Shown: in pieces, positions 32,232 to 55,796 of the stretch
How positions within the stretch are numbered: the stretch's first letter is position 1
Layout of the letters: every line of letters starts with the position of its first letter
From: Blautia hansenii DSM 20583
GTDB lineage: Bacteria > Bacillota > Clostridia > Lachnospirales > Lachnospiraceae
DNA length: 64,000 bases
Assembly: GCF_002222595.2 (NCBI RefSeq)
Contig: NZ_CP022413.2
Coordinates: 566,501 to 630,500 of the forward strand
Direction of reading: 5' to 3'
Notes under the pieces: generated by a model
Told to the model about the DNA's origin: nothing
What the model saw: only the letters and a program-made list of their open reading frames with translations
Databases searched by the model: none
Made by a program: the position numbers and the translations under genes

Positions 32232-32244
32232 GAAGGAGCAGGCA

Positions 32245-33138: not shown

Positions 33139-33147
33139 TGATATTTC

Positions 33148-34524: not shown

Positions 34525-34525
34525 A

Positions 34526-36911: not shown

Positions 36912-36939
36912 TATGATCATGGCGAAAGAGGAGAAAATT

Positions 36940-38118
36940 ATGGCACAGACATTTGAAACCCTTGAAAAATATCAAGGGTGTAGTCAGGAGTTGATTGAAC
37001 AGGCAGTTTGTCAGGCAACAGATATTGTAAAAGGAAATTTAAAGGATTTTACAGATTTTTTTCAGTCACCAAATACGAAGCAGGGATTTTATTGGCAGAC
37101 AGAAAACGTAGAATGGACTACAGGTTTCTGGACCGGTGTGGTGTGGCTGGCTTATGAGCTTACAAAAGATGATGAATTTAAGAAAACAGGAGAAGTTCAC
37201 GTAGACAGCTTCTTAAATCGTATTCAGAAAAAAATCGATGTGAATAATCATGATATGGGATTTCTGTATAGTCTTTCCTGTGTTGCGGCATATAAACTTT
37301 GCGGAAATGAAAAGGGAAAAGAGGCGGCAATATTAGCAGCCGATCACCTGCTTACCAGATACAGAGAAAACGGAGAGTTTATTCAGGCATGGGGAAATGT
37401 AGGAAATCCAAAGGATTATCGCCTAATTATTGATTGTCTGTTAAATCTTCCCTTATTATACTGGGCAACAGAGGCAACAGGAAATCCGGAATATGCTGAA
37501 AAGGCATGCAAGCATATTCATACAGCAATGCAGTGCGTGTTAAGGGAGGATCATTCTACTTATCACACCTACTATATTGATCCGGAAACTGGAAAGCCTT
37601 CTCATGGCGTAACGCATCAGGGAAATCGAAACGCCTCTGCATGGGCAAGAGGGCAGGCATGGGGTGTTTATGGTGTGGCTTTGAGCTATCGCTATCAAAA
37701 AAATCCAGAATATATTCAGATGTTCCGTGATGTAACCGACTACTTTATTGAGCATTTACCGGATGATTTAATTCCATATTGGGATTTTGACTTTGACACA
37801 GGGAGCACAGAACCAAGAGATTCTTCTTCCTCTCCTATTGCGATTTGTGGTATTTATGAAATGCTTCCGTATCTGGAAAAAGAGGAAGCAGAAAAATACT
37901 GTATGGCAGCCGATAAAATGTTGCGTGCTTTGATTGAGAGCTGTGCGGTAAAATCCATTGAACAGTCGAATGGACTTCTGTTGCATGGCACTTATGCAAG
38001 AGACACCAAAGAAAATACCTGTACGGATAGAGGTGTGGATGAGTGTAATACATGGGGGGATTATTTCTATTTAGAAGCTCTTAGAAGAAGATGTGGAGCA
38101 TGGAACCCTTACTGGTAA
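36940..38118 (+). CDS. GH88 unsaturated glucuronyl hydrolase, copy 1
   Basis: The start is ATG at 36940, after AGAGGAG; a longer frame overlaps sulfatase 3. The 392-residue cytoplasmic enzyme has an alpha6/alpha6-barrel layout. The family landmarks are VEWTTGFWTG, NHDMGFLYSLSC with the first catalytic Asp, LIIDCLLNLPLLYWA with the second, ARGQAWGVYG, and WDFDFDTG. GH88 enzymes hydrate the 4,5-unsaturated uronic acid left by a lyase such as PL8, releasing it as a keto acid and freeing the hexosamine. It is followed 11 nt later by sulfatase 4. A second copy is at 49066. Confidence 0.95.
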   Translation: MAQTFETLEKYQGCSQELIEQAVCQATDIVKGNLKDFTDFFQSPNTKQGFYWQTENVEWTTGFWTGVVWLAYELTKDDEFKKTGEVHVDSFLNRIQKKIDVNNHDMGFLYSLSCVAAYKLCGNEKGKEAAILAADHLLTRYRENGEFIQAWGNVGNPKDYRLIIDCLLNLPLLYWATEATGNPEYAEKACKHIHTAMQCVLREDHSTYHTYYIDPETGKPSHGVTHQGNRNASAWARGQAWGVYGVALSYRYQKNPEYIQMFRDVTDYFIEHLPDDLIPYWDFDFDTGSTEPRDSSSSPIAICGIYEMLPYLEKEEAEKYCMAADKMLRALIESCAVKSIEQSNGLLLHGTYARDTKENTCTDRGVDECNTWGDYFYLEALRRRCGAWNPYW

Positions 38119-38129
38119 GGAGGAAAATC

Positions 38130-39509
38130 ATGAAGAAAAGACCAAATTTATTATATGTTTTTCTGGATCAGTGGAGATATCAGGCAATGGGGTATGCAAA
38201 ATCAGATGAAGTGTGTACGCCACACATGGACAGCTTTGCAAGGGAAAGCTTAGACTGCACCGAAGCGGTCAGTACCTTTCCACTTTGTTCTCCTCATCGT
38301 GCATCTCTGTTTACGGGAAAATATCCTTTTAGTGTAGGAATGTGGACCAACTGTAAAATAGGATTGAGTGAAGTCTTAATGTTAAAACCGCAGGAAACCT
38401 GTATTGGAAATGTATTAAAGGATACAGGCTACCATACAGGTTATATTGGAAAATGGCATTTAGATGCTTCCGAACAGAACTTTGAGAAAAATCCGATTTC
38501 CGGGGCAAGTCACTGGGATGCTTATACACCACCGGGGGAAAGAAGACAAGGTTTTGATTATTGGCTGTCTTATGGTGCTTGTGATGAACATTTAGATCCC
38601 CATTATTGGGCGGATACACCGGAACAGATTAAGCCGGGTTGCTGGTCGCCGGAATTTGAGACGGATAAGGCATTGGAATATATGGAAGAAAAGAAAAATC
38701 AGGCGGAGCCCTTTGCATTGTTTGTCTCTTACAATCCACCTCATCTTCCGCATGAATTGGTACCGGATAAATATTATGAACAGTACAAGGATATGCCGGT
38801 GTATTTCAGAGAAAATGTGCCTGAGGAAAAACGGACTCCGGATATGGAAACTATTACCAGACAGTATTTTGCAGCAGTTACCGGTGTAGATGAACAGTTT
38901 GGAAGACTTTTAGAGTTTTTGAAAGAAAATGGAATGGAAGAAGATACGATTGTTGTACTTTCTGCAGATCATGGAGAAATGTTAGGTTCACATGGACACA
39001 TGGGCAAAAATGTATGGTATGAGGAGTCTATCCACATTCCGCTGTATATTCGTCAGAAAGGGCGTCTTGTTCCTGTAAAATATAAGGAGTTAGTAGCAAG
39101 TCCAGATCACATGCCTACAATTTTAGGACTTCTGAATATTCCTGTACCGGATACTTGTCAGGGCTTTAATCATGCACCAGGAATACTGGGACAGGAAAAT
39201 GATGCGCCACAAGATGCGTTTTTATGTTCTTATCCGGGAATGCCGGAAATGGTGGCAGCCTTTGAAAAACAAGGGCTGAACAGTAAGTGTTATGGTTGGC
39301 GAGGGCTTCGGACACATACATATACTTTTGTAATAAATAATGGATATGAGCCGGGGGAAAAACAGGTGAAAATGTTGTATAATAATGAAGAAGATCCTTA
39401 TCAGCAAAATCCCATTATGATTACGGAGCTGAACGAGGAACTTGCAGCAGATTATGAAAAACGTCTGCGGGAATATTTGGATATGCAACAAGATCCATTT
39501 CTTATGTAA
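38130..39509 (+). CDS. Cys-type S1 sulfatase 4, copy 1
   Basis: The start is ATG at 38130, after a TAAGGAGG that contains the GH88 stop codon, indicating translational coupling. At 459 residues it has no signal peptide. Cys53 in CSPHR is the formylglycine site. LDQWR, GKWHLDAS, NPPHLPHE, and SADHGEMLGSHG with GKNVWYE complete the active site. It is nearly identical to the copy at 50256. The conserved pairing with GH88 in both copies suggests it acts on the same disaccharide. Confidence 0.94.
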   Translation: MKKRPNLLYVFLDQWRYQAMGYAKSDEVCTPHMDSFARESLDCTEAVSTFPLCSPHRASLFTGKYPFSVGMWTNCKIGLSEVLMLKPQETCIGNVLKDTGYHTGYIGKWHLDASEQNFEKNPISGASHWDAYTPPGERRQGFDYWLSYGACDEHLDPHYWADTPEQIKPGCWSPEFETDKALEYMEEKKNQAEPFALFVSYNPPHLPHELVPDKYYEQYKDMPVYFRENVPEEKRTPDMETITRQYFAAVTGVDEQFGRLLEFLKENGMEEDTIVVLSADHGEMLGSHGHMGKNVWYEESIHIPLYIRQKGRLVPVKYKELVASPDHMPTILGLLNIPVPDTCQGFNHAPGILGQENDAPQDAFLCSYPGMPEMVAAFEKQGLNSKCYGWRGLRTHTYTFVINNGYEPGEKQVKMLYNNEEDPYQQNPIMITELNEELAADYEKRLREYLDMQQDPFLM

Positions 39510-39547
39510 AAGCGAGAGGCTGTTGCTTAGGCAATAGCCTCTCGCTT
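39510..39547 (+). other. Strong intercistronic stem-loop after sulfatase 4, copy 1
   Basis: A 17-bp stem (39510-39526 with 39531-39547, AGCGAGAGGCTGTTGC pairing with GCAATAGCCTCTCGCT) has a TTAG tetraloop. No T-run follows. A matching hairpin lies at the same place in copy 2. Confidence 0.7.
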
Positions 39548-39580
39548 GTATCAACGTATTTGAAAATCAAGAGGAAGATT

Positions 39581-40903
39581 ATGGAAAGGTGATAGGTTAT
39601 TTTTATTATGGCAGATACCCAGCGTACGGATATGCTGGGGTATTACGGAAATTCTGCAATGCTTACACCAAATCTGGACAGACTTGCGGCAGAGGGGATA
39701 CGATACGATAAAGCCTATACCACACAGCCTGTATGTCAGCCTGCGAGATCTGCGATTTTTACAGGAAGCTATCCTCATTCCTGTGCCGGATGGTCGAACT
39801 GTATGGGACTTTCCGATAATGTACAAAGCATTGGACAGCGCTTAAGCGATGCAGGAATTCACACTGCTTATGTAGGCAAATGGCATCTGGACGGCGGAGA
39901 TTATTTCGGACTGGGCAGATGTCCAAAGGGATGGGACGAAGATTACTGGTATGATATGAAATGCTTCTTGGATGAATTGACACCGGAAGAAAGATATCGT
40001 ATCCGCCAGATAGAAAGCATTGAAAAATACAACATTACCAAAGATATGACTTACGGACACCGCTGTGCAGACAGAGCCGTGGATTTTATTGAAAAACACA
40101 AAGACGAAGATTATTTTCTGGTTATGTCTTTAGACGAGCCTCACGGTCCTTATATCTGTCCGAAAAAATATGTGGATTTGTATAAGGACTACGAGATACC
40201 GGTAAAAGAAAATATGAAGGATACGCTGGAGGATAAACCGGAGCACCACAGAATTTGGGCAGGAGACCAATACTTAAAGGCATGTCGTGAAGACTTTAAG
40301 CTCAGTCCAAAAGAATTTTTAGGCTGCAATACCTTTGCGGATTATGAAATCGGCAGGGTTTTGGATGCAGCGGCGCAGTATGAGGAAGAACTGATTATTA
40401 TTCATACCTCCGACCACGGAGATATGATGTACGGACATTCCCTTACAGGAAAAGGACCTGCTTTATATGAAGAAATTACACATATTCCGCTGATGATTAA
40501 AGGCTTTGGAAAAGGTGTGGATAAAAATCCAGTGTCTCATATTAACTTAGCGCCTACGATTTTTGATATGTTTGGTGTGCCAATTCCAAAGATGTTTGAG
40601 GGAAGAAGTATCTTTGAGAAAGTGAAAAATCCGGAAATACGCTGCAATGACTATGTATTTATGGAATTTGGTCGTTATGAGGTAGACCATGACGGATTTG
40701 GCGGTTACCAGCCCCTTCGAGGCGCTTTTGACGGAAGATATAAAATGGTAATTAATTTGATGACCAGTGATGAATTGTATGATTTACAGGAAGAACCGCA
40801 GGAAATGAAAAACCTGATTAACGAGCCGGGCTATGATGAAATCAGAAAGAGACTGCATGAGGCAATTCTCAATCATATGTATAATACAAGAGATTGGAAA
40901 TAG
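39581..40903 (+). pseudogene. Sulfatase 5, copy 1, decayed at both ends
   Basis: Compared with the intact copy at 51705, the true start region (ATG at 39581) runs into TGA and TAG after three codons, where copy 2 reads Arg-Gln. Translation could restart only at ATG 39608, losing the first beta strand and its first nine residues. At the other end, homology stops at 40894 after TRD, and about 75 C-terminal residues are replaced by IS66 sequence. The middle is well preserved, including CQPAR, GKWHLDGG and TSDHGDMMYGHS. It is probably non-functional and recently inactivated. Confidence 0.85.
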
Positions 40904-42111
40904 AATTCGGTGTCAATGGGTGGAAACAGTTACCGGATGCCATTTCCAAAAAATATCATTTTGTACCTGCGAGGGTAGAGGTAGAAGAACATCACATCGG
41001 TGTGTATGCCAGCAAAACAGATGAGCACATGGTCAAAGCAGACCATCCAAAAGCATTACTGCATGGAAGTTTGGTATCACCATCTCTTGGAGCTGCGATC
41101 ATCAATGGAAAGTATGTGAATGCAGTTCCTCTCTATCGGTTAGAGCAGGAATTCCAGCGTTATGGCCTGCAGATCACAAGGCAGAACATGGCAAACTGGT
41201 GCATACGTTTGGCAGAGGAATATCTATCGATCCTTTATGATCATCTTCATGAAGAATTGTATTTCTATCATGTGATCCAGGCAGACGAGACGCCGGTGCT
41301 TGTAAACCATGACGGACGCAAAGCCGGAAGCAAAAGCTGGATGTGGGTATACCGTTCTGGTCATCTGTATCAAGACCGGCAGATTGTCCTGTATGAATAC
41401 CAGCAGACAAGAAATGCATCCCATCCACGGGAATTCCTGAAAGGATACGATGGCATCTGTGTAACAGATGGTTATCAGGTCTACCATACTTTAGAAAAAG
41501 AATTGGAAGAACTGACCATTGCTGGATGCTGGGTGCACTGTCGCCGCAGATTTGATGAAGCTTTGAAGCTGATTCCCAAACCATCCCAAAAGGAATCCAA
41601 TGCATTTCTGCTGATGAAACAGATTCAGGCAATCTATCGGGAAGAAGGGAAATTGAATGACCTTTCTTCTGATGAACGACTTAAACAGCGACAGGCGGTT
41701 ATCAAACCTCTTGTGGATGCTTTTTTTGCGTACCTGAAAACCATAAATGTGTCCAAAAAGGACAAATTTGGTGATGCCGTTAGATATGCACGAAATCAGG
41801 AAAAATATCTCCGGGTATTTCTTACAGACGGAGATGTTCCGATTGATAATAATGCATCCGAAAGGGCAATCCGAGGTTTTTGTATTGGAAAGAAGAATTG
41901 GCAGATGATCGATACGATTCATGGAGCCAAATCTTCCGCAATTATTTACAGTATTGTAGAAACTGCAAAAGCCAATAATCTGAAACCTTTTGATTATGTG
42001 CAGCATCTCTTGGAAGAGATTCCGAAACACATGAATGATAAGGACTGTTCTTTTCTGGAAGATCTTCTGCCCTGGTCAGAAAAACTTCCGGCAGGGATTC
42101 GCAAAGCTTAA
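40894..42111 (+). pseudogene. IS66 transposase (TnpC), N-terminally truncated
   Basis: The frame encodes about 405 residues, against roughly 520-540 for full TnpC. The N-terminal coiled-coil and zinc-finger part is mostly missing. The DDE catalytic residues are present: Asp in QADETPV, Asp in VTDGYQVY, and Glu in NNASERAIRG. The C-terminal LLPW motif is also intact. The frame opens with a TTG at the sulfatase junction and has no credible ribosome-binding site. It is unlikely to move on its own but could be mobilised in trans. Confidence 0.9.
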
Positions 42112-42172
42112 ATATCGGTGGCTGCAAAGCAGCCGCCTAAAAATGTCAAGGTACTCGCTATTTTGCGTTTAC
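40895..42172 (+). mobile_element. IS66 family element, 5'-truncated remnant
   Basis: Only the 3' part of an IS66 element is present: a truncated tnpC, a small hairpin (42118-42137), and a right end whose outer sequence GCGTTTAC (42145-42172 region) reads GTAAACGC on the other strand, as IS66 ends do. The left end, the two small accessory genes and the transposase N-terminus are missing. The left boundary is fused directly to sulfatase 5, so a deletion joined them. Confidence 0.8.
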
Positions 42173-42192
42173 GGAACTTTAGTGAAGATTAA

Positions 42193-43959
42193 ATGAAAAA
42201 AATATTAAAGCTGTATTTAAATAAGGAAAAGGATAAGGCGAAGATGGGGAAACAAGTTATTAAAGATTGGAAGCCAATTTATAAAATAGCAGAAGTATCA
42301 GGAGTTTTTCTTGGTGGAATTATGCTGGTACTTATATTTAGAGGCGGGTTTGATGTAATGGAAACGTGGCTACTGCGTATGCTTATAGATGCTGCAAAAG
42401 AAAATCAAGCCATCATAGGCATGTGTATATTTTTGGTTTGTTTGATTTTAGCAGAAGGTATCATGGGAATTATATCTGGAATGTGGATTGGTAGGACTGT
42501 AATAAAAGGAAGAAAAAAAATTCAGGTGTATTTAATGAATAAATTACTGGATTGTCCTCATAGTACTCTTTCAGATATGGGAACAGGAGAAATTTTGACA
42601 CGTTTGCAAACAGATAGCCGCCAATGTGTGGAAAGTATCCGATACTTTTTACAGACGGTGGTGTATGGGGGGATTCTTTTCATTTGGCCAATTATTATCT
42701 GCTTTTTTATAAGCTGGCAATTAACTCTTTTAAGCATCCTTATGGTTCCGCTTATTTTTGTTTGTGCAAAAAAATTCAGTGTCAAGATTGGTGCTGCTTC
42801 GGAAGAATTACAAAATAAAGAGGGAAAAGCAAATAAAATATTTCAAGAATGTGTTTGGCAGATACCGACAACAAAAGCATATTCTGCCCAACAAGAATGG
42901 ACTGGTTATTTAAACCAAACATTTTGTGAATTATATCGGGCAAAAAATAAAAAAGTGTTTTCTCAGTTGGTTTATGAGCCGTTTTTAAATATTATTCAGA
43001 TACTTCCTCAAATTGTAATTATAGCAGTGGGCGGTTGTTTGCTTATACAGCATAAAGTTACAGTAGGAGATTTATTACTGTTTACTATTTTTTTAGGCTA
43101 TATTACAAATGGAATGATGGGAATTCCACAATGGTTGGCACAGTATCGACAATTTTCAGGACACAGAAAAAGAATTTTTGAAATTCTGCAAATTCCATTT
43201 TTTTCGGGGAAAGACGTGGAAAAGGAAGAAAAGCCGGATATTATTTTAAACAGTATGGAGTTTATGTATGCTAATAGAAAATTCGGGATAAGCGATATTT
43301 CAGTAGAAATCGAAAAAGGAATGCATGTTGCCATTGTAGGAGAAAGTGGATGTGGTAAAACAACATTGTTGAAAACCATTGCCGGTTTAAATAGACCGCA
43401 AAAAGGAGAAGCATTTGTATTGGGCTATGATTTATTTCAATGCCGGCCGGAACAACTGTATTGTCATTTAGCATTAGTGTTGCAGGACACGTATTTGTTT
43501 CCGGGAACAATCAGAGAAAATCTGATTGCCGGAAACAGGAATATTTCTTTGGAGCAATTAGAAAATGCATGTAAAAAAGCTAAGATATGGGAATGGATTT
43601 GCAAGCTTCCGAAAGGACTTGATACAACTCTTTCGGAGTTCTCCAGTAATATTTCAGGAGGACAAAAGCAGCGAATTGGTATTGCAAGGGCAATTTTGCG
43701 TAAAGCAGATGTATGGCTTATAGATGAACCTACCAGCTCTTTAGATTATCAGACTGCTCAGGATATTTTAAATAATCTTAGGGATATTACCCGTACATAT
43801 ACGACGGTTACAGTTACTCATGATATGAGCAATATGTCAGAGTATGATTTTATTTTAGTTATGGAAGATGGAAAATTGGTGCAAACAGGACCCCACTTTG
43901 AATTGTTGAAAAAAGAAGGTGTTTATGCAAAACTCTATGAAAAGGAGAGAAATGAATAG
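42193..43959 (+). CDS. ABC exporter half-transporter A (permease-ATPase)
   Basis: This 588-residue protein has a six-helix type I exporter domain (about 35-340) fused to an ATPase domain. Walker A is GESGCGKTT (near 388), the signature is ISGGQKQRIG, and Walker B is VWLIDEPTSS. It pairs with the exporter gene 2 nt downstream, probably as a heterodimer. Base composition is visibly more AT-rich than the neighbouring glycan genes. It lies between the two copies of the duplication, right after an IS66 end, so it probably arrived by transfer. No peptide or modifying-enzyme gene is next to it, so the cargo is unknown. Confidence 0.9.
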   Translation: MKKILKLYLNKEKDKAKMGKQVIKDWKPIYKIAEVSGVFLGGIMLVLIFRGGFDVMETWLLRMLIDAAKENQAIIGMCIFLVCLILAEGIMGIISGMWIGRTVIKGRKKIQVYLMNKLLDCPHSTLSDMGTGEILTRLQTDSRQCVESIRYFLQTVVYGGILFIWPIIICFFISWQLTLLSILMVPLIFVCAKKFSVKIGAASEELQNKEGKANKIFQECVWQIPTTKAYSAQQEWTGYLNQTFCELYRAKNKKVFSQLVYEPFLNIIQILPQIVIIAVGGCLLIQHKVTVGDLLLFTIFLGYITNGMMGIPQWLAQYRQFSGHRKRIFEILQIPFFSGKDVEKEEKPDIILNSMEFMYANRKFGISDISVEIEKGMHVAIVGESGCGKTTLLKTIAGLNRPQKGEAFVLGYDLFQCRPEQLYCHLALVLQDTYLFPGTIRENLIAGNRNISLEQLENACKKAKIWEWICKLPKGLDTTLSEFSSNISGGQKQRIGIARAILRKADVWLIDEPTSSLDYQTAQDILNNLRDITRTYTTVTVTHDMSNMSEYDFILVMEDGKLVQTGPHFELLKKEGVYAKLYEKERNE

Positions 43960-43961
43960 AA

Positions 43962-45581
43962 ATGGGGAAAATACAGTTATTTGAAAAAAAACACAAGCTG
44001 GCGTTGGGGTGTGGATATGTTCTCTATCCATTAGCAAAATGTGGCTCTACCTTACTTTTGGCATCTTTATTTAGCCAAGTGTTTGCCCTTATTACAAATT
44101 CCAAAAACCAAAGACAGTTTCTTAGTTTAGTAGCGATAAATCTTCTTTTGGTGGCAGGCTGCATTTTTTTGATGGTTATTTCCAAGTGTATTATTCAAAT
44201 TTTTTTGAATAAAGCAATTATAGGATTGAAAAAAAATTATGTGACTCATTTGCAAAATATGTCATTAAAAGAATTGCAGGGACAGCATAGTGGACATTGG
44301 CTGTCAATTTTAGAAAAAGATATTCAAAAAGTAGAAACATTTTTGGGAACGACAATGATACAGTCTGTTTTGCCCATTGTCATAGGTGGAGTTTGTATTA
44401 TTTCTATTTTTTTGAAAACATGGCAAATTGGTATGGTAGTTTTAATATTGTCGGTGTCTTCTCAGATAGTAAATAAGTATTATGGAAAAAAACATCGGTA
44501 TTATCAACAGACAATTGCAGAAGAGGAAGAAAAAATACAGGAATGCGAAACGGATTGTATTGCAGGAGAGGAAACAATTCGTGTATATCAATTAAAAAGC
44601 TTTGTATTAGACAAGGTAGAAAAATTATTTTGTAAAGTAAATGAAAAAGAAGATAAATATCTAGAACAAAGAACGCTACATTATTTTATTAGCGGAATTT
44701 TAGGAAGCTTAACAATGCTGACACCGATTGCTTATGGCATGTTGCTTGTTTCCAAAGGGGAGTATGAGATTTCAGAAATTATGTATAGTGTTCAGCTTTG
44801 TGGAAATGTGGGTTGGTTTTTGGGAAGTATTGCTTCTTCTATAGAAGAAATCAGTAAATACAAGGTTTCTTATAATCGCATCAAACACGTAATAGAAACA
44901 GAAGAAGATCAAGTCTGCTTTGTAGAGGAAAAAGAGAAAGGCTACGTGCTAAAAGCAGAAAAGTGGTCAGTGGGATATGGTGATGTAAAAGTTATAAATG
45001 AGATTAATTTTCAGGCAGAGAAAGGAAAATACATTGTTATAGCAGGGGAATCAGGAAAAGGCAAGAGTACTTTGCTAAAAGGGATTAAAGGGCTTTTGAA
45101 GTCAACAGGAAAGTTGTCATGTAATTTTGAAAATGGAAAATCCGAAGGAGTATTTAACAGTGAAATGATTTATGTCCCTCAAAACGTTGAGCTGTTTGAG
45201 GAGTCCTTTTTAAATGTTCTTACATATTGGAAAGAAATACCAATGGAAGAAGTAGAGTTATGTTGTAAAAGATGCTGTATTCACGATTTTATTCAAAAGC
45301 AACCGAAGGGGTATGAAACAATGATAAGAGAACGAGGAAGTAACCTTTCAGGCGGACAAAGGCAGAGGCTTGCTATTGCAAGAGCATTGCTTAAAAAGCC
45401 TCAAGTATTGTTGTTAGACGAGGCAACTTCTGCTTTAGATGAGAAAACGGAAAGACAGCTTTTTAAGAATATAAGGGAAGCTTATCCACAGATGACAATA
45501 TTATCTGTTACTCATAGGCTGGGAGAAATGGAAAATGCAGATGAAGTTTGGAAGATGGGAGATAATGTAAAACGTATATAA
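43962..45581 (+). CDS. ABC exporter half-transporter B (permease-ATPase)
   Basis: This 539-residue partner has an exporter membrane domain (about 20-300) and an ATPase domain. Walker A is AGESGKGKST, the signature is LSGGQRQRLA, and Walker B is VLLLDEATSAL. It is shorter than usual because the region around the Q-loop is compact. It is translated two nt after half-transporter A. It shares the AT-rich composition of its partner. Its function is probably export of a peptide or lipid; nothing in the window narrows it. Confidence 0.9.
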   Translation: MGKIQLFEKKHKLALGCGYVLYPLAKCGSTLLLASLFSQVFALITNSKNQRQFLSLVAINLLLVAGCIFLMVISKCIIQIFLNKAIIGLKKNYVTHLQNMSLKELQGQHSGHWLSILEKDIQKVETFLGTTMIQSVLPIVIGGVCIISIFLKTWQIGMVVLILSVSSQIVNKYYGKKHRYYQQTIAEEEEKIQECETDCIAGEETIRVYQLKSFVLDKVEKLFCKVNEKEDKYLEQRTLHYFISGILGSLTMLTPIAYGMLLVSKGEYEISEIMYSVQLCGNVGWFLGSIASSIEEISKYKVSYNRIKHVIETEEDQVCFVEEKEKGYVLKAEKWSVGYGDVKVINEINFQAEKGKYIVIAGESGKGKSTLLKGIKGLLKSTGKLSCNFENGKSEGVFNSEMIYVPQNVELFEESFLNVLTYWKEIPMEEVELCCKRCCIHDFIQKQPKGYETMIRERGSNLSGGQRQRLAIARALLKKPQVLLLDEATSALDEKTERQLFKNIREAYPQMTILSVTHRLGEMENADEVWKMGDNVKRI

Positions 45582-45610
45582 TAGAAATCAATATGTAATG
45601 TATGTATATA

Positions 45611-45660
45611 GGGAGATACTGGCAGAATATAAACTTGCCAGATGTATAGATGCCGTGTGC
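45611..45660 (+). pseudogene. Relic of a GH43 gene
   Basis: Fifty bases align without gaps to 34860-34909 of the GH43 gene with about 41 identities. The shared core is TATAAACTTGCCAGATGT. It carries no usable reading frame. It is directly joined to a sulfatase 3 relic, although the matching intact segments are about 1 kb apart, so an internal deletion happened. Confidence 0.75.
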
Positions 45661-45740
45661 TTTTCAAAATGGCATATCATAGGGGTGAGTGGCCGTGATT
45701 ATTTCCATCCAGATATTGTGGAGAATGGTAATATAATAAT
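45661..45740 (+). pseudogene. Relic of a sulfatase 3 gene
   Basis: About 79 bases align without gaps to 35871-35949 of sulfatase 3, near 78 percent identical by eye, including the codons for Asp-Tyr-Phe-His-Pro and GATATTGTGGA. Together with the GH43 relic it shows that this side of the locus once had the same two genes. The rest of the 350-nt gap (45741-45931) is AT-rich leader sequence for importer 2; no clear promoter boxes were recognised. Confidence 0.75.
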
Positions 45741-45931
45741 ACACATAAAATTCCCGAAAACTTTATGAAAAATGTAAAAAAGTAATAAAATATGAAAAAA
45801 GTACAAGAAAAAATACACCCATATATAGATAGTAATAGAAATAGATAAATAATTCATTTATGCAAACGTGGATTTTTGGTACTCTATATTTACAAAAAAC
45901 AACGGAACATTTTTCGTAAAGGAGGAGAATT

Positions 45932-47224
45932 ATGAAAGCAAGAAAAGTAATTGCAATGGGAATGATTGCTGCCATGTCAGTAGGTATGCTGGCAGGCTGC
46001 GGCGGAGACAAAAAGGATGACAAGAAAGAGGATGGCGGAAAGAAAAAACTGACAATCTCTACGTGGGATAACGACACATCACCACAGTTTAAAACAGCCG
46101 TTGATGTATTTAAGGAAAAACATCCTGACGTAGAAATAGAATTTGTGGATACAGCAGCAAACGAATACAACAACAAGCTGACTGTTATGCTTGCCGGAGG
46201 CGATCCGGATCCTGACGTTATCTTCGTAAAAGATATGGGAACACAGATTAGCATGCAGGAAAAAGGCCAGATTGAATGTCTGGACAAATACATAGAAAAA
46301 GATAAATTAGATTTATCCATCTATAACGGAACAGCAGAAGAGCTTCAGATTGACGGAAAACAGTATACACTTCCATATCGTTCTGACTGGTACGTGCTGT
46401 ATTACAACAAAGATTTGTTTGACAAAGCAAACGTTCCTTATCCAAGCAACGACATGACATGGGATGAATACGAAGAGCTGGCACGCAAGATGACAAGCGG
46501 CGAAGGAAACGAAAAAATTTACGGAACACACAATCACAACTGGATGGCTTTAGTATGTAACTGGGCAATTCAGGATGGAAAGAACACATTAGTATCTGAT
46601 GATTACAGCTTCTTAAAACCGGCTTACGAGCAGGCGCTGCGTATGCAGAAGGACGGAATTCTTCAGGACTATGCAACAATTAAAACAGGAAACTTACATT
46701 ACTCAAGTGTATTCCAGCAGCAGCAGTGTGCAATGATGCCAATGGGAACATGGTTCATCGCAAACTTAATTCAGGCACAGAATGCAGGTGAGATTGACTT
46801 TAACTGGGGATTTGCAACCATTCCTCATCCGGAAGGCGTAGAAGCAGGAAACAGCGTTGGCGCTGTAACACCGGTTGCAATCAATGCAAACTCCGACCAG
46901 AAGGATTTAGCTTGGGAATTTGTAAAATGTGCAACAAGCGTAGAAACAGCTGAAAAGCTTGCTGAACAGGGTATTTTAACTGTTGTTCAGAACGATACAA
47001 TTATGGAAAAAGTAACTTCCGTAGAAGGCTTCCCAGAAGGCTGTGCAGAGGCACTGGAATTAAAAGGTATGGTATTCGACAGACCACTGGATAAAAACAT
47101 TGAAAAAATCCGTAAAGCAGTGGAAGAAGAACATGACTTGATTATGATTGGCGAAGAAAGTATTGACGACGGACTTAAAAATATGACAGATCGTGTAAAA
47201 GAGATACGTGAAGCCAATCCGTGA
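45932..47224 (+). CDS. ABC importer solute-binding lipoprotein 2 (CUT1 family 1)
   Basis: This 430-residue protein has a lipoprotein signal ending in MLAGC (Cys23), then a Lys/Asp-rich tether and a family 1 sugar-binding fold (ISTWDNDTSPQF; later GTWFIANLIQAQ). The start follows AAAGGAGGAG. It belongs to a different branch from binding protein 1 and is likely to bind smaller or differently sulfated fragments, since it is followed by GH88 and sulfatases. It is separated from its permeases by a hairpin. Confidence 0.93.
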   Translation: MKARKVIAMGMIAAMSVGMLAGCGGDKKDDKKEDGGKKKLTISTWDNDTSPQFKTAVDVFKEKHPDVEIEFVDTAANEYNNKLTVMLAGGDPDPDVIFVKDMGTQISMQEKGQIECLDKYIEKDKLDLSIYNGTAEELQIDGKQYTLPYRSDWYVLYYNKDLFDKANVPYPSNDMTWDEYEELARKMTSGEGNEKIYGTHNHNWMALVCNWAIQDGKNTLVSDDYSFLKPAYEQALRMQKDGILQDYATIKTGNLHYSSVFQQQQCAMMPMGTWFIANLIQAQNAGEIDFNWGFATIPHPEGVEAGNSVGAVTPVAINANSDQKDLAWEFVKCATSVETAEKLAEQGILTVVQNDTIMEKVTSVEGFPEGCAEALELKGMVFDRPLDKNIEKIRKAVEEEHDLIMIGEESIDDGLKNMTDRVKEIREANP

Positions 47225-47243
47225 TAAATAAAAATAACAAGGG

Positions 47244-47288
47244 ACAGGGCTTTCTGAATGTAGAACGAACACAGACGGAAAGCCCTGT
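47244..47288 (+). other. Stem-loop between binding-protein 2 and permease genes
   Basis: ACAGGGCTTTC (47244-47254) pairs perfectly with GAAAGCCCTGT (47278-47288). No T-run follows. It probably protects the binding-protein transcript, as the hairpin at 31243 does in the other importer operon. Confidence 0.55.
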
Positions 47289-47311
47289 GTTCTGGAAAAG
47301 GAGAAAAGGAT

Positions 47312-48214
47312 ATGGCAATGACAACAAAACAAAAAAGAGTCATAAAAAGTAATCTGATTGGATATTCATTTATTTTACCGAACTTTATCGGGTATTTCCT
47401 GTTTATCTTTGTTCCGGTGGTATTTTCTTTCGTACTCAGCGTTATGAAATGGAACGGTTCTTCCAATACACCAATGGAATTTGTAGGTCTTGAGAACTTT
47501 GTACGTTTGATGGATGACTCCACTTTTAAAATGGCTGTGGGACATACCTTCTACTATGCAATCTTCACAGTACCCCTTACAGTTGCGGCAGCGCTTTTAA
47601 TCGCAGTTTTGCTGAACAGCAAAATCAAAGGAATTGTTGTTTACCGTACTGCATTTTTCTTCCCTTATATTGCTTCTCTTGTAGCAGTAGGTGCAGTGTG
47701 GAACATGCTTTTCATGAAGGACGTAGGTCCAATTAATGAATTTTTAAGAGCAATCGGTATTTCCAATCCTCCGGGATGGGTGGCATCTGTAAAATGGGCG
47801 ATGCCGGCAATCATTATCGTAAGTGTTTGGAAATACATGGGATATTACATGATTGTATATCTTGCAGCTTTGCAGGGGATTTCAAAAGAGCTTTATGAAG
47901 CAGCCAGTCTTGACGGAGCAACAGGCTGGAAAAAACTGAAATATATTACAATTCCGATGTTAAAACCAACGACATTCTTTGTTGTAATTATGTTGACAAT
48001 TCAGTGCTTCAAGGTATTTGACTTGATTTACATTATGACAGGCGGCGGTCCCGGACGTGCAACACAGGTTATGGTAAACCACATTTATGACGCAGCGTTT
48101 ACAAACTTTGAATTCGGATATGCAAGTGCAAGTGCTATCGTATTATTTGCAATCGTGCTTGTAATTACATTAGTCCAGTTCAGAGGTGAGAAGAAATTCA
48201 CAGAGTGGATGTAA
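47312..48214 (+). CDS. ABC importer permease 2A (MalF/UgpA-like)
   Basis: This 300-residue protein has six hydrophobic segments and the EAA loop KELYEAASLDGATGWKK (about 191-207). The phrase YIMTGGGPGRATQVM near the C-terminus is the family signature of CUT1 inner-membrane components. It partners with permease 2B, 12 nt downstream. AAAAGGAG precedes the start. Confidence 0.94.
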   Translation: MAMTTKQKRVIKSNLIGYSFILPNFIGYFLFIFVPVVFSFVLSVMKWNGSSNTPMEFVGLENFVRLMDDSTFKMAVGHTFYYAIFTVPLTVAAALLIAVLLNSKIKGIVVYRTAFFFPYIASLVAVGAVWNMLFMKDVGPINEFLRAIGISNPPGWVASVKWAMPAIIIVSVWKYMGYYMIVYLAALQGISKELYEAASLDGATGWKKLKYITIPMLKPTTFFVVIMLTIQCFKVFDLIYIMTGGGPGRATQVMVNHIYDAAFTNFEFGYASASAIVLFAIVLVITLVQFRGEKKFTEWM

Positions 48215-48226
48215 AGGAGTGACAAT

Positions 48227-49051
48227 ATGAAAGCAGAAAAAAGAAAAAAAATATTGATTTATATAGGTTTGACATTTCTGGCAGTATTGATGATTATTCC
48301 TTTTTACTGGATGTTGATTTCTTCTGTAAAGCTGAATAAAGACGTATTCAGTATTCCAATGGAATGGATACCGAGAAGTTTTCACTTTGAAAACTATCAG
48401 GAAATCTGGGAAAAAATCCCACTTTTGACATTCTTTAAAAATAGTACAAAACTGACAGTAATTACAACCATTATCCAGTTGGCAACAAGCTGCTTTGCAG
48501 CTTATGGATTTGCAAAGCTGGAGTTTAAGGGAAGAGATTTCCTTTTCCTTGCTTATGTAACGACAATCGCTGTTCCATGGCAGGTATACATGGTTCCTCA
48601 GTTTACTATGATGTCCAAATTCGGTTTAAACAATACACATATCGGATTGATTATGCTTCATGCCTTCAGCGCCTTTGGCGTATTCCTTATGAGGCAGTTC
48701 TTCCTCAGTATTCCAAAAGAGCTGTCGGAAGCGGCACGTATTGACGGACTTGGCGAATACGGTATTTTTGCCCGTGTGGTATTACCTTTAGCGAAACCCG
48801 GTATTGCAACCTTAACTATTTTTACTTTTGTAAACGTATGGAACGATTTCATGGGCCCATTGATTTACTTAAACAGTACAGAGTTAAAGACTATTCAGCT
48901 TGGTATTCGTATGTTTATTTCTCAGTATGCCGCTGATTATGCTCTGATTATGGCAGCATCTGTATGTGCTCTGATACCGGTAGTAATTATCTTTATTGCC
49001 TGTCAGAAATTCTTCGTAGAAGGTGTTGCAGCAAGTGGTATCAAGGGCTAA
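48227..49051 (+). CDS. ABC importer permease 2B (MalG/UgpE-like)
   Basis: This 274-residue protein has six helices and the EAA loop KELSEAARIDGLGEYGIF (about 164-181). Its C-terminus FFVEGVAASGIKG is typical for MalG-type permeases. It is followed 14 nt later by the GH88 copy 2 gene, so import and processing are in one transcript. No ATPase is encoded, as for importer 1. Confidence 0.94.
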   Translation: MKAEKRKKILIYIGLTFLAVLMIIPFYWMLISSVKLNKDVFSIPMEWIPRSFHFENYQEIWEKIPLLTFFKNSTKLTVITTIIQLATSCFAAYGFAKLEFKGRDFLFLAYVTTIAVPWQVYMVPQFTMMSKFGLNNTHIGLIMLHAFSAFGVFLMRQFFLSIPKELSEAARIDGLGEYGIFARVVLPLAKPGIATLTIFTFVNVWNDFMGPLIYLNSTELKTIQLGIRMFISQYAADYALIMAASVCALIPVVIIFIACQKFFVEGVAASGIKG

Positions 49052-49065
49052 AAAAGGAGAAAAAT

Positions 49066-50244
49066 ATGGCACAGACATTTGAAAACCTTGAGAAATATCA
49101 GGGGTGCAGTCAGGAAATGATAGAACAGGCAGTTCATCAGGCAACTGCTATTGTAAAAGGTAATTTAAAGGATTTTACAGACTTTTTCCAGTCTCCCAAT
49201 ACAGAAAATGGATTTTATTGGCAGACAGAAAATGTAGAATGGACCACAGGTTTTTGGACCGGTGTGGTATGGCTGGCTTATGAGCTTACAAAGGACGAAG
49301 AATTTAAGAAAACAGGAGAAGTTCACGTAGACAGCTTTTTAAATCGTATTCAGAAAAAAATTGATGTGAATTATCATGACATGGGATTTCTTTACAGTCT
49401 TTCCTGTGTTGCGGCATATAAGCTGTGTGGAAGTGAAAAAGGAAAGGAGGCTGCTATTTTGGCAGCCGACCACCTGCTCACCAGATACAGAGAAAACGGA
49501 GAGTTTATTCAGGCATGGGGAAATGTAGGAGATCCAAAGGATTATCGCCTTATCATTGACTGTCTGTTAAATCTTCCTTTATTATACTGGGCAACAGAGG
49601 TTACAGGAAATCCGGAATATGCTGAAAAAGCATGCAAGCATATTCATACGGCAATGCAATGTGTGTTAAGGGAAGACCATTCCACTTATCATACCTACTA
49701 TATTAATCCGGAAACAGGAAAACCTTCCTATGGCGTAACCCATCAGGGAAATCGAAACGGCTCTGCATGGGCAAGAGGACAGGCATGGGGCGTATACGGT
49801 GTTGCGTTAAGCTATCGTTATCAGCAAAATCCGGAGTACATCCAGATGTTCCGTGATGTAACCGATTACTTTATCGAACATTTACCGGAAGACTTAATTC
49901 CATATTGGGATTTTGATTTTGACACAGGAAGCACAGAGCCAAGAGACTCCTCTTCCTCCGCCATTGTTATCTGCGGTATTTACGAAATGCTTCCGTATCT
50001 GGAAAAAGAAGAAGCAGAGAAATATGGCATGGCAGCAGATAAAATGCTGTGTGCTTTAATTGAAAAATGTGCGGTAAAATCTAAGGAACAGTCCAACGGT
50101 CTTTTGCTGCACGGCACTTATGCCAGAAGCTCCGAAGAAAACACCTGCAAGGACAGAGGTGTGGACGAGTGTAACACATGGGGCGATTACTTCTATTTAG
50201 AAGCCCTCCGAAGAAGATGCGGAACATGGAACCCTTACTGGTAA
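49066..50244 (+). CDS. GH88 unsaturated glucuronyl hydrolase, copy 2
   Basis: The start is ATG at 49066, after AAAAGGAGA; the longer frame overlaps the permease. At 392 residues it is the same length as copy 1, with about 27 substitutions. The catalytic regions YHDMGFLYSLSC, LIIDCLLNLPLLYWA, ARGQAWGVYG and WDFDFDTG are unchanged. Substitutions fall mostly on the N-terminal helix and near the C-terminus. It shares the role of copy 1 but lies behind importer 2, so the two may respond to different regulators. Confidence 0.95.
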   Translation: MAQTFENLEKYQGCSQEMIEQAVHQATAIVKGNLKDFTDFFQSPNTENGFYWQTENVEWTTGFWTGVVWLAYELTKDEEFKKTGEVHVDSFLNRIQKKIDVNYHDMGFLYSLSCVAAYKLCGSEKGKEAAILAADHLLTRYRENGEFIQAWGNVGDPKDYRLIIDCLLNLPLLYWATEVTGNPEYAEKACKHIHTAMQCVLREDHSTYHTYYINPETGKPSYGVTHQGNRNGSAWARGQAWGVYGVALSYRYQQNPEYIQMFRDVTDYFIEHLPEDLIPYWDFDFDTGSTEPRDSSSSAIVICGIYEMLPYLEKEEAEKYGMAADKMLCALIEKCAVKSKEQSNGLLLHGTYARSSEENTCKDRGVDECNTWGDYFYLEALRRRCGTWNPYW

Positions 50245-50255
50245 GGAGGGAAATC

Positions 50256-51635
50256 ATGAAGAAAAGACCAAATTTATTATATGTTTTTCTGGATCAGTGG
50301 AGATATCAGGCAATGGGCTATGCAAAGGAAGATGAAGTGTGTACTCCCCACATGGACAGCTTTGCAAGGGAAAGCCTAGACTGCACAGAAGCAGTGAGCA
50401 CCTTCCCCCTTTGTTCTCCACACCGTGCATCCTTGCTGACGGGAAAATATCCTTTTAGTGTAGGAATGTGGACAAACTGCAAAATCGGATTAAGCGAAAT
50501 TTTAATGTTAAAGCCACAGGAAACTTGTATCGGAAACGTGTTAAAGGATACAGGATACCACACCGGATATATCGGAAAATGGCATTTGGATGCTTCAGAG
50601 CAGAATTTTGAGAAAAATCCTGTTTCAGGAGCAAAGGATTGGGATGCCTACACTCCACCGGGAGAGAGAAGACAGGGATTTGACTACTGGCTCTCCTACG
50701 GCGCATGTGATGAGCATTTAACTCCTCATTACTGGGCAGATACACCAAAGCAAATCAGACCGAACTGCTGGTCACCGGAATTTGAGACGGATAAGGCGCT
50801 GGAATATATGGAAGGAAAGAAACAGCAGGAAGAACCCTTTGCTCTGTTTGTTTCTTACAATCCTCCCCACCTTCCCTATGAGCTTGTGCCTGATAAATAT
50901 TATGAAAAGTACAAAGATATGCCGGTACATTTCAGGGAAAACGTGCCAAAGGAAAAGAGGACTCCGGAGATGGAGACCATTACCAGACAGTATTTTGCAG
51001 CAGTTTCCGGTGTAGATGAACAGTTTGGAAGACTTTTAGATTTCCTGAAGGAAAACCACATGGAGGAAGATACCATTGTGGTACTTTCAGCCGACCATGG
51101 CGAAATGTTAGGTTCTCATGGACGTATGAGCAAAAATGTGTGGTATGAGGAGTCTATCCACATTCCATTGTATATCCGCCAGAAAGGGCGTCTTGCTCCT
51201 GCAAAATATAAGGAGCTGGTAGCAAGTCCCGACCACATGCCTACACTTTTAGGACTGTTGGATATTCCTGTGCCGGATACCTGTCAGGGCTTTAATCATG
51301 CGCCGGGAATACTGGGACAGGAAAATGATGCGCCACAAGATGCGTTTTTATGTTCTTATCCGGGAATGCCGGAAATGGTGGCAGCCTTTGAAAAACAGGG
51401 GTTGAACAGTAAGTGCTATGGCTGGAGGGGTATTCGGACACATACACATACTTTTGTAATAAATAATGGATATAAACCGGGAGAAAAACAGGTGAAAATG
51501 TTGTATAATAATGAAAAAGATCCTTATCAGCAAAATCCTATTATGATTACGGAGCTGAACGAGGAGCTTGCAGCAGATTATGAGAAACGTCTGCGGGAAT
51601 ATTTAGATATGCAGCAAGATCCATTTCTTATGTAA
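50256..51635 (+). CDS. Cys-type S1 sulfatase 4, copy 2
   Basis: The start is ATG at 50256, coupled to the GH88 stop through TAAGGAGG. At 459 residues it is nearly the same as the gene at 38130. CSPHR (Cys53), GKWHLDAS, and SADHGEMLGSHG with KNVWYE are conserved. The few changes, such as GHMGK to GRMSK next to the active-site Lys, could tune substrate preference; that is untested. It is cytoplasmic. Confidence 0.94.
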   Translation: MKKRPNLLYVFLDQWRYQAMGYAKEDEVCTPHMDSFARESLDCTEAVSTFPLCSPHRASLLTGKYPFSVGMWTNCKIGLSEILMLKPQETCIGNVLKDTGYHTGYIGKWHLDASEQNFEKNPVSGAKDWDAYTPPGERRQGFDYWLSYGACDEHLTPHYWADTPKQIRPNCWSPEFETDKALEYMEGKKQQEEPFALFVSYNPPHLPYELVPDKYYEKYKDMPVHFRENVPKEKRTPEMETITRQYFAAVSGVDEQFGRLLDFLKENHMEEDTIVVLSADHGEMLGSHGRMSKNVWYEESIHIPLYIRQKGRLAPAKYKELVASPDHMPTLLGLLDIPVPDTCQGFNHAPGILGQENDAPQDAFLCSYPGMPEMVAAFEKQGLNSKCYGWRGIRTHTHTFVINNGYKPGEKQVKMLYNNEKDPYQQNPIMITELNEELAADYEKRLREYLDMQQDPFLM

Positions 51636-51640
51636 AACGA

Positions 51641-51668
51641 AGAGGCTGTTGCTTAGGCAATGGCCTCT
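51641..51668 (+). other. Intercistronic stem-loop after sulfatase 4, copy 2
   Basis: AGAGGCTGTTGC (51641-51652), loop TTAG, and GCAATGGCCTCT (51657-51668) form a stem with two wobble pairs. It is in the same place as the hairpin at 39510 and shares its loop. Confidence 0.6.
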
Positions 51669-51704
51669 GTTTGCATAAAATAAATACTTATCAGGAGGAA
51701 GATT

Positions 51705-53222
51705 ATGAAGAAAAGACAGGTTATTTTTATTATGACAGATACCCAGCGCACAGACATGCTGGGCTGTTATGGCAATTCCGCAATGGTTACACCGAATTTA
51801 GACAGGTTGGCGGCAGAGGGAATACGATACGATAAAGCCTATACCACACAGCCTGTATGTCAGCCTGCAAGGTCTGCGATTTTTACAGGAAGCTACCCTC
51901 ATTCCTGTGCCGGATGGTCGAACTGTATGGGACTTTCCGATAATGTACAAAGCATTGGACAGCGCTTAAGCGATGCAGGAATTCACACTGCTTATGTTGG
52001 AAAATGGCATCTGGACGGCGGAGATTATTTCGGATTGGGCAGATGTCCAAAGGGCTGGGACGAAGATTACTGGTATGACATGAAATGCTTCTTGGATGAA
52101 CTGACACCGGAGGAAAGATACCGTATTCGCCAGATAGAAAGCATTGAAAAATACAACATTACCGAAGATATGACTTACGGACACCGCTGTGCAGACAGAG
52201 CAGTGGATTTCATTGAAAAACACAAAGACGAAGATTATTTTCTGGTTATGTCCTTAGACGAGCCTCACGGCCCACATATTTGTCCAAAAAAATATGTGGA
52301 TTTGTATAAAGACTATGAGATACCGGTAAAAGAAAATATGAAGGATACGCTGGAGGATAAGCCGGAGCACCACAGAATTTGGGCGGGAGACGAATATCTA
52401 AAGGCATGCCGTGAAGACTTTAAACTCAGTCCAAAAGAATTTTTAGGCTGTAATACCTTTGCAGATTATGAAATCGGCAGGGTTTTGGATGCGGCGGCGC
52501 AATATGAAGATGAGCCGATTATTATTTATACTTCTGACCACGGAGATATGATGTACGGACATTCTCTTACAGGAAAAGGACCTGCTTTATATGAAGAAAT
52601 TACACATATTCCGCTGATGATTAAAGGCTTTGGAAAAGGTGTGGATAAAAATCCTGTTTCTCACATCAACTTAGCGCCTACGATTTTTGATATGTTTGGC
52701 GTGCCAATTCCAAAGATGTTTGAAGGCAGAAGTATCTTTGAGGAAGTGAAAAATCCGGAAGTACGCTGCAATGACTATGTCTTTATGGAATTTGGTCGTT
52801 ATGAGGTAGACCATGACGGATTTGGCGGTTATCAGCCTCTTCGAGGTGCTTTTGACGGACGTTATAAGATGGTAATTAACCTTATGACCAGTGATGAGCT
52901 GTATGATTTGCAGGAAGATCCGCAGGAGATGAAAAACCTGATTAACGAGCCGGGCTATGATGAAATCAGAAAAAGACTGCATGAGGCAATTCTGGACAAC
53001 ATGTATGAAACAAGAGATCCTTTCCGAGGCTATTATTGGGAAGACCGTCCATGGAACCGTATTACAGAATACAAAACATGGGACAGCAGACTGATGACAC
53101 GTCAAAGAGAAAATGAAGAATATGAGCCAAGACAGTTAGATTACGGCACAGGGCTTCCGATGACTTCCGCTGTGAGAAAAAAAGGACAGTCAGATGCCAA
53201 GTTTGCAGGAAAAAAAGAATGA
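51705..53222 (+). CDS. Cys-type S1 sulfatase 5, intact copy
   Basis: This 505-residue protein has no signal peptide and starts after AGGAGG. Cys52 in CQPAR is the formylglycine site. MTDTQRTD supplies metal ligands, followed by GKWHLDGG, DEPHGPH, and TSDHGDMMYGHS with GKGPALYE. The C-terminal region (about 430-505, WEDRPWNRITEYKTW) is missing in the decayed copy at 39581 and shows what that copy lost. Its stop overlaps the next gene's start (ATGA). Confidence 0.94.
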   Translation: MKKRQVIFIMTDTQRTDMLGCYGNSAMVTPNLDRLAAEGIRYDKAYTTQPVCQPARSAIFTGSYPHSCAGWSNCMGLSDNVQSIGQRLSDAGIHTAYVGKWHLDGGDYFGLGRCPKGWDEDYWYDMKCFLDELTPEERYRIRQIESIEKYNITEDMTYGHRCADRAVDFIEKHKDEDYFLVMSLDEPHGPHICPKKYVDLYKDYEIPVKENMKDTLEDKPEHHRIWAGDEYLKACREDFKLSPKEFLGCNTFADYEIGRVLDAAAQYEDEPIIIYTSDHGDMMYGHSLTGKGPALYEEITHIPLMIKGFGKGVDKNPVSHINLAPTIFDMFGVPIPKMFEGRSIFEEVKNPEVRCNDYVFMEFGRYEVDHDGFGGYQPLRGAFDGRYKMVINLMTSDELYDLQEDPQEMKNLINEPGYDEIRKRLHEAILDNMYETRDPFRGYYWEDRPWNRITEYKTWDSRLMTRQRENEEYEPRQLDYGTGLPMTSAVRKKGQSDAKFAGKKE

Positions 53223-53861: not shown

Positions 53862-53988
53862 ATGCTGTATCGAAGAGTTCCGAATATAAATTCAGTGTTT
53901 CAAGTGTTTGCATGGAGGATTGAATTTACATCCGGAATTGTATAAAAATGGGGAATATGGTAAGATTTTAATAAGTGGGGGGACGGAT

Positions 53989-55770: not shown

Positions 55771-55796
55771 CTTAGACATAAGGCGGGGGAAAAGAA

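Follow-up and report, generated by a model that had tools for sequence, protein, structure and literature searches.

The genome of Blautia hansenii DSM 20583 carries, within a locus of predicted glycosaminoglycan (GAG) use, two copies of a block consisting of a GH88 hydrolase and two S1-type sulfatases, and the comparison with related genomes suggests that the second copy was acquired from a relative. The window analyzed here is a stretch of 64,000 nucleotides (contig NZ_CP022413.2, positions 566,501 to 630,500 of the forward strand), and positions below are those of the window unless another source is named; the host genome (G000) is a single contig of 3,065,949 bases. The upstream block is referred to as copy A and the downstream block as copy B, and the two sulfatases of each as sulfatase 1 (Sa) and sulfatase 2 (Sb). 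The reading we favor, with modest confidence, is that copy A is native and that copy B, together with the ABC importer in front of it (importer 2), was derived from a relative of Blautia sp. Marseille-P3201T (G012), so that the two blocks would be orthologous and come from two Blautia lineages. If true, the locus exemplifies an operon whose second set came from another species, not from copying, and which was then trimmed, with several of the steps still readable. Bacterial gene families generally expand by transfer rather than by duplication; the locus is ordinary in kind and makes a good, unusually readable case study of patchwork assembly.

Self-BLAST of the window returned one long direct repeat, 36925-40894 (copy A) against 49051-53018 (copy B), with 89.2% identity over 3970 columns (425 mismatches, 2 gaps) and a start-to-start spacing of 12,126 bp. 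The original prediction from this DNA had described a direct repeat about 12.1 kb apart, with GH88 proteins about 93% identical and with an IS66 remnant, an AT-rich ABC exporter pair and importer 2 between the copies. All of this is borne out: the GH88 proteins are 93.1% identical, the three intervening elements are present and the GC content of the exporter is 0.33-0.36. The coordinates given for the repeat were nearly right, the homology beginning 15 bases further upstream. The claim that the copies match gene for gene and in length fails, as the sulfatase 2 gene of copy A (Sb_A) has stops at codons 4 and 5 and ends at 40903, versus 505 residues in Sb_B. Nor does the doubling itself end where copy A now ends on the right; a piece of IS66 starts at that point. 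The completeness of copy A was certainly misjudged and the origin of the repeat probably so. Two long homologous blocks in one genome are indeed found, as in a segmental duplication, but the copies are not mutually closer than they are to the copy of a sister species: B and G012 are 94.0% identical versus 89.3% for A and B, the exception being alignment columns 2851-3150, where A and B reach 95-98%. An origin as a within-genome segmental duplication is not favored, copy B being closer to another species' copy than to A.

The synonymous divergence (dS) from G012 sets the two copies apart. Between A and B, the dS is 0.685 for GH88, 0.759 for Sa and 0.347 for Sb. The corresponding values are 0.739, 0.843 and 0.41-0.42 between A and G012, and 0.343, 0.404 and 0.27 between B and G012. 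The baseline draws on 194 reading frames from the 264 kb that surround the window; these gave 121 pairs with G012 at 80% coverage and 70% identity, 21 in the locus and 100 outside with none dropped; the latter have a median dS of 0.676 (quartiles 0.47-0.82, 5-95% range 0.19-1.20). In GH88 and Sa, one copy lies at core divergence from the sister species and the other is closer, which is the pattern of a xenologous pair; the gap is smaller in Sb (0.41 versus 0.27). A tree of columns 1-2100 unites A with the A copy of G013, a record labelled Blautia hansenii MSK.15.26 (G013-A; support 100), and B with G013-B and G012 (87), with B and G013-B as closest relatives (99). The core-like distance of A, the closeness of B to G012 and the grouping in this tree together make B the likely incoming block.

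Because the dS of a single gene is noisy, weight was placed on the contiguity of the low values. Nine consecutive genes with a G012 counterpart, from 42193 to 55770 (exporter to histidine kinase), have a dS of 0.04-0.37; within this run the two exporter genes, E1 and E2, stand at 0.04 and 0.27 and importer 2 at 0.19-0.27. For the nine genes from 23176 to 39509 the range is 0.43-1.26, mostly 0.75-1.26 (one permease 0.43), and the two genes to the right of 55770 have 1.24 and 0.87. The exporter itself is a mosaic, 99-100% identical to G012 over 42536-44635 and 81-94% beyond. This 2.1-kb segment of the exporter is 99-100% identical to both G012 and G013, in surroundings that are 81-95% identical to G012, pointing to a very recent cross-species exchange.

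Between the exporter and importer 2 sits a 148-bp scar that the original prediction had overlooked. It consists of a 71-bp match to the GH43 gene (34838-34908) and a 76-bp match to the next sulfatase (35871-35946), each at 80% and in order, which score 66 and 71 bits; when the source region was codon-shuffled 500 times, no score exceeded 31 bits. In G012 the genes run importer 1 - sulfatase - GH43 - sulfatase - importer 2 - block (single) - exporter - kinase, and its DNA matching the window from 45735 onward directly abuts the end of the corresponding sulfatase. The second unit of the window therefore probably once had its own GH43-sulfatase pair before importer 2, like G012, which suggests that the doubled unit was once larger.

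Both copies and the junctions are seen directly, as are the divergence pattern, the scar and the broken gene; from these we infer a donor, a direction of transfer, a single-crossover route and an order of losses. Copy B would have arrived from a G012 relative with importer 2, the ABC exporter and part of the second GH43-sulfatase pair. As it stands in the window, the incoming segment reads exporter - GH43/sulfatase scar - importer 2 - GH88 - sulfatase - sulfatase, a circular permutation of the G012 order. Two routes would lead to such an order: recombination of a circular or tandem piece by one crossover within the shared block, and unequal tandem duplication. Later losses would have removed importer 2 before A, the exporter after B and most of the second GH43-sulfatase pair, and a recent one, by way of IS66, the tail of sulfatase 2 in copy A. 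In line with what a single crossover would forecast, the right part of A is closer to G012 (89-95%) than its left part (77-94%).

Several observations weigh against transfer from a G012 relative. A single crossover predicts a native right end for B, but B resembles G012 right up to its end (95-100% in the final ~800 columns), so that a later exchange must be assumed. Low values are also not confined to the locus, 17 of the 100 baseline genes having a dS of 0.37 or less. Eleven of these 17 belong to a single block of 19 genes at 631.9-653.5 kb of G000; outside it the count is 6 of 81, and the longest run of neighbors at 0.40 or less is 2. That block (631905-653469, ~1.4-23 kb past the window end; dS to G012 of 0.03-0.30 in 11 of 19 genes) suggests another exchanged segment, and exchange with G012 thus occurs also without any doubling. 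The identity of the scar favors no one source (window 80%, G012 78-86%, G013 79-82%). In the aligned stretch, G012 has no match to the sulfatase and PL8 genes at 25139-29390, and the loci differ otherwise too. A donor with exactly matching DNA was not found.

The same scar and permuted order would also fit a tandem duplication with reciprocal loss. In this account, which we regard as rather unlikely, the GH43-sulfatase-importer 2-block-exporter unit was doubled in the window's own lineage about the time of the species split, the copies diverged, complementary losses followed, and G012 later received, or exchanged, the B-type segment. The A-B dS of 0.69-0.76 in GH88 and Sa is as old as the species split, and exchange with G012 is seen outside the repeat as well, e.g. 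at 54238-54838 (98-99%). A transfer is still needed, however, as the distance of B from G012 is about half that of the core genes, and G012 keeps the undoubled order with importer 2 beside the block. The original proposal of a recent within-genome segmental duplication with strain-level deletion agrees with the direct orientation, the 4-kb length and identical runs of up to 101 bases, but we find it very unlikely: 11% nucleotide divergence, with a synonymous divergence of ~0.7 in two of the three genes, already contradicts a recent event, and B groups with G012 and G013-B rather than with A. An assembly artefact is rejected, given the one-contig genome, 425 mismatches and 11% divergence unlike those of an assembly duplication, and the recurrence of both block types and junctions in the separate assembly of G013.

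G013 is itself informative for the history of the composite. Seven window genes are 68-83% identical in G013 at the nucleotide level and the core median dS is 1.72 (n=7); by these sequences G013 and G000 are different species, whichever bears the name B. hansenii. The contigs of G013, whose order is inferred, hold importer 1 through copy A without importer 2 (92%), the exporter with scar and importer-2 leader (99%), and permease 2 - GH88 - sulfatase 1 of B (98.3%), the exporter being 96-100% identical. Both odd junctions of the window, sulfatase next to copy A without importer 2 and exporter next to scar and importer-2 leader, are thus common to the two genomes. The fact that they are shared despite such distant core genes indicates that the composite, or parts of it, moved between species. 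G013 could be the source of the near-identical DNA (G013-B 98%, exporter 96-100%), yet it may be the recipient.

In G013 the composite is breaking up. Its Sb_A is frameshifted and interrupted beside a tyrosine integrase gene, a transposase gene (DDE_Tnp_1_4) lies at the contig edge before permease 2, and copy B departs from the homology at window 51672. The sulfatase 1 of G013-A is B-like near its end. The integrase gene (G013 locus L109:1-1090) lies at the edge of an element that has entered Sb_A of G013. IS66 is absent before the G013 exporter, where a sulfatase 2 fragment and a gene with a DUF1611 domain are found instead. This gene (L139:3689-4741) immediately precedes the exporter and is missing from the window, which has the IS66 piece at that place; the exporter may have been part of a small-molecule or peptide cluster now lost.

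In a wider comparison of related loci (the best 80 of 123), the last permease of importer 2 lies at most 1.5 kb upstream of GH88 in 37 of the 80, and copy A without importer 2 therefore looks derived. Two GH88 genes at 60% identity or above occur in none of these 80 loci, with flanks of up to 10 kb that would miss a copy 12 kb away. A count of sulfatase 1 beside GH88 (27 of 80) was left unused, since its cut-off left out overlaps of more than 60 bases. A more general proposal, which we offer as speculation and think improbable, is that copies from relatives enter the GAG locus of Blautia time and again and remodel it, each using homology in the GH88-sulfatase block and a single-crossover, circle-like route. 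The composite would then pass between species while its blocks keep converting each other, and the block would act as a recombination handle for swapping importers.

Conversion of this kind is probably visible between A and B. With window A, window B, G012 and G013-A as the quartet, 175 of 185 informative sites in columns 1-2100 pair A with G013-A and B with G012, and 16 of 25 sites in columns 2101-2850 give the same pairing. In columns 2851-3150 (window 39758-40057), 16 of 18 sites pair A with B instead (Fisher p 2.6e-17 versus columns 1-2100). Over these columns the identity of A to G013-A drops to 85% and that of A to B climbs to 95-98%, while that of B to G012 stays at 90-93%, which suggests a B-to-A direction. 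Three results weigh against such an exchange and led us to grade it only as probable. In the tree of columns 2851-3200, the split that unites A and B has a support of only 79. When G001, another genome of the genus, replaces G013-A, 6 of 7 sites in columns 3001-3250 unite A and B, but only 2 of 7 do so in 2751-3000. In a test on the longest stretch of identical variable sites, A-B is significant (31 sites, p 0.0025), but so are A-G012 (38, p 0.0005) and B-G012 (70, p 0.0005), and the stretch of 31 falls where G012 is identical too. We conclude that A and B probably exchanged sequence near 39769-40051.

The signal seen is one of tract exchange, not of deletion. The arithmetic of the predicted deletion holds: a crossover between A and B removes ~12.1 kb and leaves one set, whose third gene has the tail of B. 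The accompanying claim that the copies are able to recombine stands in part, on the direct repeat with identical runs of up to 101 bases (the longest being 101, 92, 89 and 67) and on the probable past exchange, but a product of deletion was not found. None was seen in the genomes compared, all of other species than the window's: in G012 the single copy is still accompanied by importer 2 and the exporter, and parts of both copies persist in G013. A deletion product would lose importer 2 and the exporter and so would not be neutral. Deletion between the copies, and the difference between strains that the original prediction drew from it, are best described as possible.

The third gene of copy A is likely a pseudogene. 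Its start at 39581 reads ATG GAA AGG TGA TAG, with two in-frame stops that are absent at the corresponding place in B, G012, G013-A and G001. The homology to B is cut at 40894, the reading ending inside the IS66 piece, and Sb_A lacks 67 C-terminal residues that are kept in all 14 other aligned homologues (window B, G012, G001, G013-C65 and 10 loci at 65% or above). The piece carries the DDE_Tnp_IS66 transposase domain of its family, whose longer copies elsewhere in G000 have both terminal inverted repeats; the window has only the right 1.28 of 2.81 kb, the left 1.53 kb being missing. It is 99.0-99.9% identical to four other copies in G000, one of them without the last 30 bases, and to one in G001, and 92.6% identical to one in G012. 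Because of the 99.0-99.9% identity, its arrival at copy A was probably recent.

The state of Sb_A raises the question, separate from that of origin, whether the doubling is of any use. Copy A could be on its way out in a decaying mosaic, with two sets under no selection, whatever their origin; in the window, stops and truncation have broken Sb_A, and its G013 counterpart is frameshifted and cut by the integrase-bearing element. The other two genes speak against such decay. GH88_A and Sa_A are free of internal stops in the window and in G013 alike, and the ratio of non-synonymous to synonymous divergence (omega) is ~0.05 for A versus B and 0.08-0.09 for window A versus G013-A in both genes. We take decay to be a possible but doubtful account.

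A use for both copies can be proposed from the predicted function of the locus. PL8 would cleave GAGs of the chondroitin/hyaluronan type, the ABC importers would take up the products, and cytoplasmic sulfatases and GH88 would finish the breakdown. The motif C-x-P-x-R is present in all seven sulfatase frames of the locus, the broken Sb_A included, and one match to sulfatase maturase (TIGR03942) exceeds the cut-off, at G000:682691-683737. The nearest solved relatives of GH88_B are unsaturated glucuronyl hydrolases (2zzr, 3anj and others). Those of Sa_B are the chondroitin/dermatan 4-O-endosulfatases 6j66 (E 1.4e-90) and 6s21 (E 1.3e-80), with the 'putative sulfatase' 2qzu scoring in between, and by this kinship Sa is a candidate chondroitin 4-O-sulfatase. 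For sulfatase 2, a broad set led by Sulfatase_S1_30A and choline-sulfatase comes first and GAG sulfatases score lower. Judged by eye, the sulfatases and GH88 seem to lack a signal peptide, and both binding proteins are lipoprotein-like at their starts. This agrees with the route of ABC uptake followed by cytoplasmic desulfation and GH88 cleavage set out in a published account (PMC5430744). GH88_A starts 29 bases after the end of a sulfatase in the importer 1 run, and GH88_B 15 bases after importer 2, so that either importer run is followed by a GH88 and a sulfatase 1 of its own, probably co-transcribed with it. Enzymes of its own for each importer are a plausible use of keeping both copies. 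If the favored origin is true, testable predictions follow on the A-B deletion and on the two importers each with their own enzymes.

Degrading enzymes, transporters and regulators occur together in the locus (PL8, GH88, sulfatases, importers and regulators), as in the Gram-positive glycan loci (gpPULs) for GAGs; the available sections of a review of these describe no doubled block, name Blautia 0 times in the main text and call GAG use by gut Firmicutes little studied (PMC9067506). The GAG cluster of Streptobacillus moniliformis likewise holds a binding-protein ABC importer, PL8, a sulfatase and GH88 together, the last two predicted to be cytoplasmic; unlike in the window, one sulfatase and one GH88 are named, and the portion of that account at hand mentions no doubling (PMC5430744). 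Synologs or pseudoparalogues are homologues of high similarity that share a genome and go back to either duplication or transfer; those of carbohydrate metabolism in Azotobacter vinelandii are an example. As far as the excerpted account goes, they resemble the Blautia sets in being similar carbohydrate homologues in different working contexts that are not put down to recent duplication, but they are mostly non-tandem, unlike sets 12 kb apart in one locus (PMC4022178). B. hansenii DSM 20583 itself is a predicted GAG user with an unsaturated glucuronyl hydrolase (UGL) and kduI-dhuD-dhuI; this account shares the genus and the predicted pathway, and its available text describes no doubled UGL-sulfatase block (PMC12838403). 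In the titles and abstract openings that literature searches listed, no description of a doubled GH88-sulfatase block in Blautia was found, which is not proof of absence in print.

Two or more block matches at 85% identity or above were found by whole-genome search only in G000 and G013 among 20 genomes of the genus. Among 397 sampled genomes of the family, two matches at E 1e-175 or better occur in three, and as neighbors only in the window's own genome, those of G064 and G378 being far apart or on separate contigs; this search scored up to 4 candidates per genome among the matches listed and can miss distant extra copies. A plasmid-borne source was considered and discarded, the four records found covering 109 of 3970 bases each and all being from E. 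coli. The metagenomic sulfatase 1 clusters P0006 (163 members) and P0008 (351 members) have an A-like and a B/G012-like representative, respectively; clustering at 90% may mix the two types, so no frequency is drawn from them. P0005, a 620-residue B-type metagenomic protein with a partial sulfatase 1 repeat (one member, 3.8-kb contig), is probably a misassembly and was dropped.

Table 1. Features of the doubled locus, in window coordinates.
Feature	Coordinates	Strand	Evidence
Upstream part: AraC-like regulator (weak match), then sulfatase 25179-26606, PL8 lyase 26594-29386	23176..36911	+	
Upstream part, continued: importer 1	29553..33138	+	
Upstream part, continued: sulfatase	33148..34524	+	
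Upstream part, continued: GH43	34451..35485	+	
Upstream part, continued: sulfatase	35457..36911	+	
Repeat copy A: GH88 - sulfatase 1 - broken sulfatase 2	36925..40894	+	self-BLAST, 89.2% to 49051-53018
GH88_A, unsaturated glucuronyl hydrolase, 392 residues, intact	36940..38118	+	PF07470; no internal stops; A-B omega 0.05
Sa_A, sulfatase 1 of copy A, 459 residues, intact, motif CSPHR	38130..39509	+	PF00884; A-B omega 0.05
Sb_A, sulfatase 2 of copy A, likely pseudogene	39581..40903	+	in-frame stops at codons 4 and 5; lacks the conserved C-terminal tail
Probable A-B exchange tract	39769..40051	+	16/18 informative sites unite window A and B
IS66-family remnant, right 1.28 kb of 2811-bp element	40894..42172	+	PF03050, PF13817; 24-bp terminal repeats
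IS66 transposase, C-terminal part	40894..42111		
IS66 right inverted repeat	42149..42172		
ABC exporter pair: E1 42193-43959, E2 43962-45581	42193..45581	+	PF00664, PF00005
Scar of second GH43-sulfatase pair	45589..45736	+	matches 34838-34908 and 35871-35946, 80%
Importer 2: binding protein 45932-47224; permeases 47312-48214, 48227-49051	45932..49051	+	PF01547, PF00528
Repeat copy B: GH88_B 49066-50244, Sa_B 50256-51635, most of Sb_B	49051..53018	+	self-BLAST
Sb_B, sulfatase 2 of copy B, 505 residues, complete, motif CQPAR	51705..53222	+	PF00884, PF16347; tail like other aligned homologues
Small AAA-type kinase-like gene, at the exporter position of G012	53219..53803	+	PF13521
Histidine kinase 53908-55770; AraC-type response regulator 55797-57446	53908..57446	+	

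The small kinase-like gene (53219-53803) overlaps the end of Sb_B by 4 bases, has no NCBIfam match and has no G012 counterpart among the dS pairs. The window contains no Rfam match at the gathering threshold and no tRNA, so that tRNA-targeted integration is not seen within it. A promoter and terminator scan stood at the level of shuffled sequence (53 versus 47.1, sd 7.3, and 8 versus 11.6, sd 3.5, respectively) and was not used. Outside the block, a dispersed repeat of ~100-145 bp is found at 10039-10181 and 57655-57799 and also matches itself on the opposite strand. It has no Rfam match in the window and is present in 13 of the 20 genomes of the genus, G001 and G013 having none. With 27 matches in G000 and 44 in G012, it is possibly a family of miniature inverted-repeat transposable elements (MITE) or one resembling repetitive extragenic palindromes (REP).

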